DNA of 36,708 nucleotides from an uncultured Pseudomonadales bacterium (GTDB lineage: Bacteria > Pseudomonadota > Gammaproteobacteria > Pseudomonadales > Porticoccaceae), in the NCBI GenBank assembly GCA_905478975.1, contig CAJQKW010000030.1, positions 1-36,708 of the forward strand. The letters run 5' to 3'. Below, piece by piece: positions 28,763 to 33,386 of the stretch. A program made the translations under genes and the position numbers. The notes below the pieces were generated by a model. That model saw only the letters and a program-made list of their open reading frames with translations, ran no database searches and had not been told where the DNA came from. Positions within the stretch are counted from its first letter, which is position 1. Each line of letters starts with the position of its first letter.

Positions 28763-31700
28763 TTAATCATAGTGCAAAGTAACGCTATTTTTTCCGAATT
28801 GTTCCCGCAGCTGGCCAATCAACTCATCCCGCGGCTGCACTCGCCACTGATTGCCCAGTTTCAGGCGTCCACTGGCGCTGGCCCCAATATAATCAACCTC
28901 CAGGGGACAGTTGCCATCTTTGTAGTTATTGACCGACCGTTGCAAGCTGTCGACCCAGGGGCTGCCGTTTGCCGTGCCATCCGCTGAGTTGCTATCGATG
29001 GTGAGCGCCAGGCGCTTGAGCTTGCTACAGCGCGCTTCATAGATTGACTGCACTGATTCGGCGAGCATTTTAAGGCCGCCGGTAAAACTGTCTTCCGAGA
29101 CCACTCCCTGTACCACGAGCAGGGCATCTTTAACCAAAATCTCGCGGTAGACATTGTATTTTTCGGCAAATATCGACAGCTCAAGACGGCCACTTTTGTC
29201 GTCGAGGGTGATAAAGGCAAAGTTCTCACCGCGTTTATTCTTCATCACCCGCATGGCGATAACCATCCCGGAGATCGTCGCCAGCACCTTGGCCGGGCGC
29301 AGCTTGGAGATACGATTGGGATGCATCATCCGCAACTCGTCTTCGTATTCGTCGATGGGGTGCCCGGTCAGATAGAGCCCGAGGGTATCGCGCTCGCCAT
29401 TCAACCGTTCTCTGCCGGACAGACTGCGGGCCGCACCATAGCTGGTGTAATTAATATCTGAGGCGCTCTCAACAATGGATTCGCCAAACAGGTCGCCCAT
29501 ACCGCTGCTGGTATTGCGGGCATGTTGTTCGGCGAGCTTCACCGCCTGATCCATGGCCGCCAGCATCACCGCACGGCGATAGCCGATCTCGCCCTCTGGA
29601 CCAATGAGATCAAAGGCGCCACTGCGAATCAGCGCTTCGATGGCACGTTTATTAACCTTGCGACCATCCACCCGAGCACAGAAGTCGAAGAGATCCTTAA
29701 AGGCACCACCTTCCTCCCGTGCCGCGAGAATATTACCCACTGGGCCTTCACCCAAACCTTTAATGGCACCCAAGCCATAGATCACACTATTTTGCTTGTC
29801 GACACTAAAGTGGAACTGACCGCCATTCACATCCGGCGGCAATAGTTCAAGATTCATGGCCCGGCATTCGTCGATAAAGGTTACGACCTTATCGGTCTTG
29901 TCCATGTCCGAGGAGATGGTCGCCGCCATAAACTGGGCGGGATAGTGCTGCTTTAGCCAGGCGGTCTGATAGGCCACCAGAGCATAGGCGGCGGAGTGAG
30001 ATTTGTTAAAACCGTAGCCGGCAAACTTCTCCATCAGGTCGAATATATTTGAGGCCAGCTCTTTGGTAAAGCCCTTGCCTATGGCGCCGTCAATAAACAA
30101 CATGCGCTGTTTGGCCATTTCGTCAGCGTTCTTTTTACCCATGGCGCGACGGAGTAAATCGGCGCCACCCAATGTAAAGCCGCCCATCTCCTGAGCGATC
30201 TGCATCACCTGTTCCTGATAGAGAATAATGCCGTAGGTCGGTTCTAAGGCTGGCTTCAGGCACTCGTGCTGATACTGGGAATGGGGGTAACTAACCTCGG
30301 CACGGCCTTTTTTACGATTGATAAAATCGTCGACCATGCCGGACTGCAGTGGTCCCGGGCGGAACAGGGCCACCAATGCAATAATATCTTCAAAGCGGTC
30401 GGGCCCGAGCTTCTTGATCAGCTCTTTCATGCCCCGGGACTCAAGCTGGAACACCGCGGTGGTTTCGGCGCGCTGCATCAAACCATAGGTAGGCTGATCG
30501 TCGAGGGGGATCTTGTCGATCTCGAGGGGCGCTTCCCCAGCAATACTGCGGTCCGCATTAATCATGCGCACCGCCCAATCAATAATCGTCAGTGTGCGCA
30601 GGCCCAAGAAGTCGAACTTAACCAGACCGGCATCTTCCACATCGTTTTTATCAAACTGGGTCACCACACCGCCGCCGGTCTCATCGCAATAGATCGGCGA
30701 GAAATCGGTGATCTTGGTCGGTGCAATCACTACACCACCCGCGTGCTTACCACAGTTGCGGGCAACACCTTCGAGCTGCACGGCCATGCCCCAAATCTCG
30801 GCGGCTTCTTCGTCATCATCCAAAAACTGTTTTAGCGACTCTTCCTGCTCGACTGCCTTCTCCAGAGTCATGCCCACTTCGAAGGGAATTAATTTGGAGA
30901 GTTTATCGGCGAGGCCATAGGACTTGCCCTGCACTCGCGCCACATCGCGAACCACCGCCTTGGCCGCCATGGTGCCGAAGGTGACAATCTGTGATACGGC
31001 GTCGCGACCGTACTGCTCGGCCACATAGGCGATCACCCGATCGCGCCCTTCCATACAGAAATCGATATCGAAATCCGGCATGGAGACACGCTCTGGATTG
31101 AGAAAGCGCTCAAACAGTAGATCGTATTCCAGAGGGTCGAGATCGGTAATCAGTAGTGAGTAGGCGACTAGAGAGCCGGCACCGGAACCCCGTCCGGGCC
31201 CTACAGGGATAAGATTGGTTTTTGCCCAGCGGATAAAGTCCATCACAATCAGGAAGTAGCCGGGAAATTCCATCTGGATAATAATTTTAAGCTCGAATTC
31301 CAAACGCTCGGTATAGCGCTTTTGGATCTCAGGAAAATCAGCGGCACTGGTATCGTAGAGTACCTCGAGACGATCTTGCAGGCCTTTCTCAGATTCCAGG
31401 ATAAAGAATTCATTGATGGTCATGCCATCGGGAATCGGGTAATCCGGTAGAAAGTACTCTCCCAGACGCAGCTCTATAGAACAGCGACGGGCGATCTCAA
31501 CGGTGTTTTCCAGAGCTTCGGGGATATCAGCGAACAACTCCGCCATCTCGTCAGCACTGCGCAGATACTGCTGCTCCGAGAAGCGGCGCTCGCGACGGGG
31601 GTCATCTAGGGCACGACCCTCATGGATACAGACTCGGGCTTCATGGGCTTCAAACTCGCCCTTGCCGATAAAGCGCACATCGTTGGTGGCCACCACTGGG

Positions 31701-32281
31701 CAGTTGTAGCGAGCGGCTAGGTCAACCGCGGCATGCAGGTAATCCTCTTCTTCGACACGACCGGTGCGCTGCAACTCAAGGTAGAAGCGATCGCCAAACA
31801 GGGCGATAAATTCTTCCAGCGCGGTGGCCGCATCATCGAGACGACTGGACACCAGCGCTACACCGATCTCGCCGTTGCGACCGCCAGACAGCGCGATCAG
31901 TCCATCACTGAACTCCGCCAGCCACGACCTTTTAATATGCGGCACGCCTTGGCGCTGGCCCTCTTGATAGGCCTTAGAGATTAATTTGGTGAGATTGGCA
32001 TAGCCGGCCTGGTCTTTAACCAGCAATACCAGCTGCGTGGGACTGCCCTCACCGCTCTCATCGAGCACCAGCAGATCAGCACCGAGAATCGGCTTTACGC
32101 CAGAACCCTGGGTGGCTTTGTAAAACTTTACCGCAGCAAAGAAATTATTGAAGTCGGTGAGCGCCACCGCGGGCATGCCCAGATCGGCGACGGCCTTGGC
32201 CAGTGGCTTTATTCTCACCAACCCATCGACTAATGAGTATTCAGAATGCAGCCGCAGATGAACAAATGATGCAGTAGTTAT
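28763..32281 (-). CDS. dnaE: DNA polymerase III subunit alpha, probable ATA start
   Basis: Replicative polymerase. Domains: PHP (1-280), polymerase palm with P-D403-F-D405-I-D-F, fingers, helix-hairpin-helix, OB fold near 1010-1090 and tail. The first standard start in the frame is TTG at 32219-32221, but 20 codons upstream of it the frame encodes the conserved start S-F-V-H-L-R-L-H-S-E-Y-S-L-V-D-G with the PHP His-x3-His element. Between the upstream in-frame TAA and that segment there is no ATG, GTG, TTG or CTG. ATA at 32279-32281 (I/M-T-T-A-S-F-V-H) lies 7 nt after AAAGGG and 4 nt after the fabH-type stop. This gives 1172 aa; the catalytic Asp numbering then differs from E. coli (401/403) by only 2. 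Confidence 0.88.
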   Translation of the reverse strand: MTTASFVHLRLHSEYSLVDGLVRIKPLAKAVADLGMPAVALTDFNNFFAAVKFYKATQGSGVKPILGADLLVLDESGEGSPTQLVLLVKDQAGYANLTKLISKAYQEGQRQGVPHIKRSWLAEFSDGLIALSGGRNGEIGVALVSSRLDDAATALEEFIALFGDRFYLELQRTGRVEEEDYLHAAVDLAARYNCPVVATNDVRFIGKGEFEAHEARVCIHEGRALDDPRRERRFSEQQYLRSADEMAELFADIPEALENTVEIARRCSIELRLGEYFLPDYPIPDGMTINEFFILESEKGLQDRLEVLYDTSAADFPEIQKRYTERLEFELKIIIQMEFPGYFLIVMDFIRWAKTNLIPVGPGRGSGAGSLVAYSLLITDLDPLEYDLLFERFLNPERVSMPDFDIDFCMEGRDRVIAYVAEQYGRDAVSQIVTFGTMAAKAVVRDVARVQGKSYGLADKLSKLIPFEVGMTLEKAVEQEESLKQFLDDDEEAAEIWGMAVQLEGVARNCGKHAGGVVIAPTKITDFSPIYCDETGGGVVTQFDKNDVEDAGLVKFDFLGLRTLTIIDWAVRMINADRSIAGEAPLEIDKIPLDDQPTYGLMQRAETTAVFQLESRGMKELIKKLGPDRFEDIIALVALFRPGPLQSGMVDDFINRKKGRAEVSYPHSQYQHECLKPALEPTYGIILYQEQVMQIAQEMGGFTLGGADLLRRAMGKKNADEMAKQRMLFIDGAIGKGFTKELASNIFDLMEKFAGYGFNKSHSAAYALVAYQTAWLKQHYPAQFMAATISSDMDKTDKVVTFIDECRAMNLELLPPDVNGGQFHFSVDKQNSVIYGLGAIKGLGEGPVGNILAAREEGGAFKDLFDFCARVDGRKVNKRAIEALIRSGAFDLIGPEGEIGYRRAVMLAAMDQAVKLAEQHARNTSSGMGDLFGESIVESASDINYTSYGAARSLSGRERLNGERDTLGLYLTGHPIDEYEDELRMMHPNRISKLRPAKVLATISGMVIAMRVMKNKRGENFAFITLDDKSGRLELSIFAEKYNVYREILVKDALLVVQGVVSEDSFTGGLKMLAESVQSIYEARCSKLKRLALTIDSNSADGTANGSPWVDSLQRSVNNYKDGNCPLEVDYIGASASGRLKLGNQWRVQPRDELIGQLREQFGKNSVTLHYD

Positions 32282-32294
32282 TGGATTACCCTTT
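32282..32294 (-). promoter_or_regulatory. Ribosome-binding site supporting the ATA start of dnaE
   Basis: On the minus strand AAAGGG (32294-32289) precedes the ATA by 7 nt (TAATCCA). It lies inside the last codons of the upstream ketosynthase gene, whose TAA is part of the spacer, so coupled reinitiation is likely. Confidence 0.6.
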
Positions 32295-33386
32295 GCCTTT
32301 AGTTAGCAGATGGCTGGCATCAACACCGTAGTGTGTAAAGCTATCTTTCATTAGATCAAACACCGTGCCCTCATATTCAGGAATCGATTTATCCGACTCT
32401 GATATGGGTTCTATGCGATCACCCCATTTAATAATTCCGGCGCCACAGGTTAAGCCAGCACCAAAAGTTGCGGTGAGAATCGTCATACCCGGCTTCACCC
32501 GGCCATCTTCCAAGGCGTCACAGAGTGCCAGGGGAATCGACGCTGCCGATGTGTTGGCATATTTATCAATCGCCACAACCACTTTTTCCATGGGAAAATC
32601 GAGGCGTTTAGCCAGTGATTGGATGATTCGAATATTCGCCTGATGGGGAATAAACAGATCTATATCGGCTGCCGTCAAACCCTGCTTCTCGAGCACATCA
32701 TTGATCGCGTCAGACATGCCTTTGACCGCACTCTTAAATATTTCCGCGCCATCAAAGTCCAGTGAAACATACATGTCGCCGGTAAGATGGGCAGGAGACA
32801 TACCCCAAGTAGGCAGGCGCAAGCAATCGCGACTATCGGGAACACAGCTCATTTTTGCCGTTAACAGGCCGCACTCTTCCTCGACCGCTTCAATAACCAC
32901 CGAGCCAGCACCATCGCCAAACAGGAAGCAGGACTCGCGCTTCTGCCAGTCCATAGCCAGAGAGATACGCTCTGAGCCAATCACTAGGGCTTTATTAATT
33001 GAGCCGGCTTTAACCATATCCGTGGCACTGTTAAGGGCATAGAACCAGCTGGTGCAGGCGGAGTTGAGATCAAATGCAGCGGCTTTTTTGGCACCGAGTT
33101 TATTCTTAATATAACTGGCAGTATTGGGGCAAATTTCTTCAGGGGTAGTGGAGCCGAGAATAATCAGATCTATATCATCGGCATCGACACCGGCAGCTGC
33201 CAGTGCTCGCTCAGCAGAGAGCCAGGCCATTTCACCGGTGGAAACGTGACTGTAATGGCGCTGACGGATACCCGAGCGAGAGAAAATCCACTCATCGCTG
33301 GTATCGACAATTTTGGCCATATCATCGTTTGTCATCAGCAGCGGCGGAGCATATTTTCCCCAACCGGTTATCTGTGCATATCTCAA
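32286..33386 (-). CDS. Beta-ketoacyl-ACP synthase III family protein (FabH-like)
   Basis: A thiolase-fold condensing enzyme with the KAS III triad: C111 (N-S-A-C-T-S-W), H248 (P-H-Q-A-N-I-R) and N278 (Y-A-N-T-S-A-A-S). These condense an acyl-CoA with malonyl-ACP. The 366-aa protein is about 45 residues longer than E. coli FabH (317 aa): after the usual end (G-A-G-I-I-K-W-G, to 322) it has an acidic tail of unknown role. The start is TTG with GAGGGG 6 nt upstream. Its position between rnhB and dnaE is not the usual fabH locus (plsX-fabH-fabD), so it may be a paralogue with another acyl preference. Confidence 0.87.
   Translation of the reverse strand: MRYAQITGWGKYAPPLLMTNDDMAKIVDTSDEWIFSRSGIRQRHYSHVSTGEMAWLSAERALAAAGVDADDIDLIILGSTTPEEICPNTASYIKNKLGAKKAAAFDLNSACTSWFYALNSATDMVKAGSINKALVIGSERISLAMDWQKRESCFLFGDGAGSVVIEAVEEECGLLTAKMSCVPDSRDCLRLPTWGMSPAHLTGDMYVSLDFDGAEIFKSAVKGMSDAINDVLEKQGLTAADIDLFIPHQANIRIIQSLAKRLDFPMEKVVVAIDKYANTSAASIPLALCDALEDGRVKPGMTILTATFGAGLTCGAGIIKWGDRIEPISESDKSIPEYEGTVFDLMKDSFTHYGVDASHLLTKGKG

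Follow-up and report, generated by a model that had tools for sequence, protein, structure and literature searches.

In Escherichia coli, infC starts with AUU, and so does pcnB. AUA starts are known from Staphylococcus aureus, where PMC13009471 names infC, ccpN, and citZ. Here, we analyze the start of dnaE, the gene for the DNA polymerase III alpha subunit, in a stretch of 36,708 nucleotides (nt) from an uncultured Pseudomonadales bacterium of the Porticoccaceae (assembly GCA_905478975.1, contig CAJQKW010000030.1), referred to below as the window. Sequence comparison makes it very probable that AUA, not AUG, is the start codon of dnaE in the window genome and in about a dozen related species. 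An AUA start is a known but rare arrangement, and it is surprising in so essential a gene.

The described systems resemble dnaE to different degrees. Like dnaE, pcnB of E. coli has a near-cognate start on an enzyme gene, but gene and codon differ. With infC, dnaE shares an AUH start (H being A, C, or U) and a Shine-Dalgarno motif; infC, however, autoregulates through initiation factor 3 (IF3), whereas dnaE is without such a loop. According to PMC13009471, ccpN of S. aureus and Bacillus subtilis and citZ of the S. aureus NCTC 8325 lineage combine AUA with Shine-Dalgarno pairing, as dnaE does, and the AUA start of ccpN is conserved between species. These are metabolic genes of another phylum whose starts were shown by profiling and reporters, whereas dnaE encodes a gammaproteobacterial replicase and is assessed by comparison only. 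PMC13009471 also reports that cvfC1 (AUU), ccpN, and citZ reporters reached about 10% of the AUG level in poor medium; in rich medium, the ccpN reporter rose to as much as 30%. For 61,358 ancestral AUG starts, PMC5622118 counts 363 switches to GUG, 113 to UUG, two to CUG, and one to AUU, and states that stronger Shine-Dalgarno motifs accompany non-AUG starts. PMC10158994 examines in vitro which codon-anticodon pairings IF3 prefers, but has no direct bearing on AUA with CAU. No replicase or dnaE with an AUA start was found in the literature searched, largely at title and abstract level.

In the window, dnaE lies on the minus strand at 28763..32281 (1172 codons from ATA), as assigned by its profile match to the alpha model. 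The frame is closed upstream by an in-frame TAA (32303..32305, minus strand), after which the minus strand reads CTA AAG GCA AAG GGT AAT CCA ATA ACT ACT GCA TCA TTT GTT CAT CTG. Between this TAA and the conserved FVHLRLHSEYS, the dnaE frame of the window contains no ATG, GTG, TTG, or CTG. The proposed start codon is the ATA at 32279..32281 (minus strand; residue 1), to which the clade comparison and the alignment with E. coli DnaE also point. A Shine-Dalgarno core, AAAGGG (32289..32294, minus strand; duplex energy -6.4 kcal/mol), is located 7 nt upstream of the ATA, at the very end of the upstream ketosynthase gene (final codons and stop), and the stop codon of that gene (TAA, 32288-32286) ends 4 nt before the ATA. 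The original prediction had read the start region in just this way, and the sequence is as described there. The first canonical start in frame is a TTG (32219..32221, minus strand), followed by a GTG (32218-32216). Automatic annotation would be expected to choose the TTG, in all likelihood an annotation error: the open reading frame would encode 1152 instead of 1172 amino acids, so that 20 residues are clipped, as had been claimed.

We compared this region across the genus, labeling genomes G and loci L, with G000 as the window genome. The search covered 50 genomes, and the dnaE start was read in 46 of them, since G006, G012, G069, and G070 had no usable N-terminus. Of these, 32 congeners have an ATG as their nearest canonical start, placed four codons ahead of FVHLR. 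The remaining 14 genomes (G000, G001, G032, G023, G057, G065, G056, G002, G062, G061, G017, G018, G034, and G016) show ATA at the homologous position in 12 cases and ATC in one (G018), while G016 (L121) reads ATG GCG ATA AAC, with an ATG two codons before the ATA that overlaps the ketosynthase stop as TAATG. An alignment of close relatives, as proposed in the original prediction, hence finds ATA kept in one clade and ATG in the 32 other congeners; ATA as the dnaE start is upheld by its presence at the same place in 12 congeners including the window genome and by its match to E. coli residue 1.

A DnaE tree of 45 rows (41 genus genomes and four outgroups; five genus rows shorter than 480 amino acids, all with ATG, were left out) places the 14 genomes on one side of a branch with a Shimodaira-Hasegawa-like approximate likelihood ratio test (SH-aLRT) support of 99, and the start type needs one change on this tree compared to 12.2 with shuffled labels. 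The branch uniting the 13 genomes without G016 has a support of 89, G016 being the earliest branch of the clade. As sister of the ATA/ATC species, G016 is a natural test case for the origin of the AUA start. The nearest named outgroup in the tree is Cellvibrionales bacterium UBA3090 (L102, 68%). Among more distant genome-contig loci, 76 of 80 show the motif together with an upstream canonical start, located within 12 codons in 75 of them and at 19 codons in L054; of the four loci without the motif, L103 was later read as ATG and L056, L058, and L081 were unread. In other families of the order, 18 of 20 stretches have an ATG or GTG start, and the other two, G051 and G052, are without the motif.

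The sequence features expected of an AUH start are present. The window has no canonical start before the conserved N-terminus, the exceptions among the relatives being G016 with its upstream ATG and G018 with ATGs in an extension; the codon is conserved between species (ATA in 12 and ATC in one of 14); and a Shine-Dalgarno core stands at a usable distance, since AAGG lies 7-9 nt upstream of the start position in all 14 clade genomes. The number of codons counted from the start to FVHLR is 5 in eleven genomes (including the ATA of G016), 12 in G034, 16 in G017, and 29 in G018. This interval always consists of whole codons, whereas the distance to the ketosynthase stop changes frame. The codon before the start position is CCA, CTA, CTG, or GCG and the one after it ACT, GCT, GTT, AGC, or AAC. 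We examined 36 columns on the tree: the three ATA columns show 0, 0, and 1 changes, and the rest between 0 and 7. In this column alignment, G000 is one base out of register upstream because of a 1-nt deletion. The Shine-Dalgarno/anti-Shine-Dalgarno duplex energies range from -3.9 to -6.4 kcal/mol in the 13 ATA/ATC genomes, with the window at the strong end, and reach -3.2 in G016. The 32 ATG congeners have a mean of -1.7, their best pairing sometimes being 11-16 nt off.

The protein read from the ATA is a replicative DnaE by its full-length match to the alpha-subunit model NCBIfam NF004226 (1539.2 bits, cut-off 1002), in which residue 3 falls on profile position 3; the error-prone model NF004225 gives 635.3 bits, under its cut-off of 939. 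Its PHP domain matches from profile position 1 onward with 157 bits, compared to position 15 onward and 131 bits for the TTG form. Residue 5 aligns with residue 5 of E. coli alpha (5fku_A), the ATA being residue 1, and the block after the ATA is present in the sequences of E. coli alpha chains with solved structures. The part of the N-terminal PHP block that a TTG start would lose, FVHLRLHSEYSLVDG (32222..32266, minus strand), differs between genomes mostly synonymously: over the 16 codons from FVHLR, the 14 clade genomes show 585 synonymous versus 24 non-synonymous pairwise differences. Residue 10 is Arg in the window DnaE, as in E. coli, and the clipped stretch therefore holds part of a degenerate metal site. 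In E. coli DnaE, R10H is one of the mutations used for restoring PHP metal binding (PMC3666897). The original prediction had expected the clipping to remove metal-site histidines; part of the PHP metal site would indeed be lost, but the site is degenerate and the clipped stretch appears to hold no full set of metal histidines. The window genome also has a second DnaE-type polymerase frame, L002 (G000:C55:7397-9862), which is 31% identical over query residues 7-845 and presumably represents the error-prone DnaE2.

We also looked at the initiator tRNA. The search gave matches in seven of eight genomes, G002 having two partial matches on two contigs, and no match in the window's own genome, which is 79.86% complete. 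At six loci the match spanned 76 nt, and for these ARAGORN returned the anticodon CAU in all six genomes. A changed initiator tRNA is thus disfavored, as every genome with a near-complete match retains CAU. The whole-codon spacing, the constant position, the translated block, the AAGG core, and the unchanged initiator together argue that the ATA is the start.

Several other explanations of the ATA have to be weighed against this. A sequencing or assembly error that turned ATG into ATA, which the original prediction had named as a test of its own reading, might be suspected in a genome of 142 contigs that is 79.86% complete. A single-base error is practically ruled out, however, by ATA at the same place in 11 other genomes, including the single-contig G023 and G057 with four contigs, and by ATC in the single-contig G018. 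Equally implausible is a frameshift at the ketosynthase end that yields a ketosynthase-DnaE fusion: the genes abut and AAAGGG before the stop recalls prfB-type shifting, but stop-to-start distances of 7, 8, 2, 37, and 63 nt produce all three frame relations in the clade, and a fixed programmed fusion needs one. Initiation at the internal TTG 32221 or GTG 32218, with the upstream block untranslated, would use the first canonical in-frame starts, and yet we give it hardly any weight. Against it, FVHLRLHSEYSLVDGL shows the 585 versus 24 pairwise differences described above, the PHP match would drop by 26 bits and lose 14 profile positions, and the E. coli alpha chains of solved structures contain the block. 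Moreover, the TTG is not constant, the codon at its position being TTG in 10, TTA in two, and CTG in two of the 14 clade genomes; with a block evolving almost only synonymously, the internal TTG start was rejected. It is also improbable, if less remotely so, that another near-cognate codon beside the ATA serves as start, for example the CTG that adjoins it in G061 and G062, given that the flanking codons vary and ATA is constant but for one ATC.

The rival that we take most seriously accepts the AUA start as real and regards it as neutral, i.e., as a drifted weak start that is tolerated, propped up by the Shine-Dalgarno core, and sufficient where little dnaE translation is needed. The alpha subunit is needed in few copies, and the clade has stronger Shine-Dalgarno energies than the ATG congeners, which compensation would produce. 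We examined selection on the codon over the first 590 DnaE codons of the 13 ATA/ATC genomes. Ile is encoded without exception at 31 sites; ATA accounts for 22 of their 403 codons, and at none of these sites is it found in at least 12 of the 13 genomes. Of 67 two-fold A/G sites, 22 are mostly A, and one of the 22 is free of G in every genome. Among the 198 four-fold sites are 12 invariant ones, and one of the seven that are mostly A is likewise free of G. The third base of the start codon is G in none of the 13 genomes, although one A-to-G change would give ATG. As G is avoided at just 1 of 22 mostly-A sites and ATA is rare at Ile codons, the ATA looks selected, and we lean toward a weak start that is kept by selection over a tolerated weakness. 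This is one site and not decisive against neutrality, which we consider possible but the less probable account.

Some observations weigh against an AUA start maintained by selection. The selection test concerns one codon in related genomes and gives support, not proof; some neighboring columns are invariant too, such as parts of the Shine-Dalgarno core. The duplex energy of -6.4 kcal/mol is unexceptional, as 23 of 101 control genes of G023 are as strong and their median is -4.2, so that Shine-Dalgarno strength at the window dnaE is good but ordinary. G061 and G062, which have a CTG immediately ahead of the ATA, could start at that CTG. G018 has ATC instead, followed by two in-frame ATGs before FVHLR; its start may have moved. 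No Shine-Dalgarno core is visible by eye for these two ATGs. G016, with its ATG two codons upstream, may never have used ATA. DnaE of G018 (L008), G034 (L120), and G017 (L007) carries a Ser/Thr/Pro/Ala-rich N-terminal extension. The rnhB and ketosynthase matches of G017 (L132) are fragmented, probably by assembly errors or indels, and its extension is to be read with caution.

Taking these points together, we consider it likely that dnaE of this lineage is translated, with the help of the Shine-Dalgarno core, from an AUA that arose once and was kept by selection. The 30S subunit would be positioned by the AAGG(G) core in which the ketosynthase gene ends. The ordinary initiator tRNA (CAU) would then pair with bases one and two of the AUA and mismatch at the third, giving a full-length product that begins with formylmethionine (fMet), fMet-TTASFVHLR... 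The weak codon would most likely have arisen once, after the G016 branch split off. Selection would have kept it, most simply because it is enough, or of advantage, to make little of the replicative polymerase and to make it in a way that is sensitive to initiation factors. The start region, its conservation in one clade, the Shine-Dalgarno core, and the unchanged initiator tRNA are seen in the sequences; the use of AUA in the cell, the lowered synthesis, and the reason for keeping it are what we infer. By analogy with the known AUA starts, low output and IF3 sensitivity would be the likeliest course at dnaE, and low output is plausible because few copies of alpha are needed. The A/G-site and Ile-codon test gives indirect support to selected weak initiation; the low replicase synthesis suggested in the original prediction, and with it a throttle, may follow. 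That the AUA is a selected, IF3-responsive throttle tying polymerase supply to the state of translation initiation is a speculative and rather doubtful extension.

The gene upstream of dnaE encodes a FabH-like beta-ketoacyl-ACP (acyl carrier protein) synthase III (32286..33386, minus strand; NF006829, 385.8 bits, cut-off 249; TIGR00747, 345.1 bits, cut-off 292.1). All 14 clade genomes have a ketosynthase match ahead of dnaE. The FabH-like gene is placed between rnhB and dnaE in most of the genus; it had no match in the upstream flanks of G005, G008, G010, G014, G063, and G064 that were searched. Measured between the first bases of the two codons, the dnaE start follows the ketosynthase stop after 7 nt in G000, after 8 or 2 nt in eleven genomes, and after 37 and 63 nt in G018 and G034, respectively. 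The stop overlaps the start as TAATA in G002 and as TGATA in G061 and G062, where coupling may help. Coupling of dnaE to the ketosynthase gene, also part of the original prediction, is less well supported: the spacing is 2-8 nt in 12 of 14 genomes, but tight coupling cannot be essential, since G018 and G034 keep the Shine-Dalgarno core and ATC or ATA at 37 and 63 nt.

We screened neighboring genes that have a homologue of less than 93% identity for similarity upstream of their first canonical start. In 220 kb around dnaE of G023, 14 of 145 genes were flagged, and dnaE alone was flagged against two such genomes, namely G018 and G011. The figure for G057 was 13 of 124, again with dnaE alone against two. 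The window had five flagged genes out of 31. Among them, dnaE was flagged by comparison with G018 and G011, whereas for the comEC-, pabB-, and rsmE-like frames the flags came solely from G023 and G057. G018 had nine of 133 flagged, five of them against at least two genomes, and its dnaE, with the in-frame ATGs, was not among them. One of the five, pdxB, reads GAT TCC ACT CTG AAA ATT GTA GCC compared to TTG AAA ATA GTC in the window and likely starts with CTG. The remaining flags we take for conserved leaders. The screen missed infC in the G023, G018, and G057 stretches, despite the ATT read in G018, so it is no proof that dnaE is unique and no full count of unusual starts. In G019 (L139), G016 (L142), and G018 (L144), infC reads GGA GTA AAG TTT/CTT ATT AAA AAA, like the classical AUU start; the motif used for this reading caught three of six infC loci, all three with ATT.

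For these species, annotation restricted to ATG, GTG, and TTG would cut off the beginning of the PHP domain of DnaE. The genus, with its ATA starts, the ATC of G018, the ATG and ATA of G016, and 32 ATG genomes, offers a comparison set for the co-evolution of start codon and Shine-Dalgarno motif. An essential gene that about a dozen species keep on one of the weakest start codons would extend selected near-cognate starts from regulators to the replisome. If the proposed throttle is real, infC, which has AUU in those congeners that were read, and dnaE with its AUA would respond together to how stringent initiation is, and replisome number would be tied to growth.

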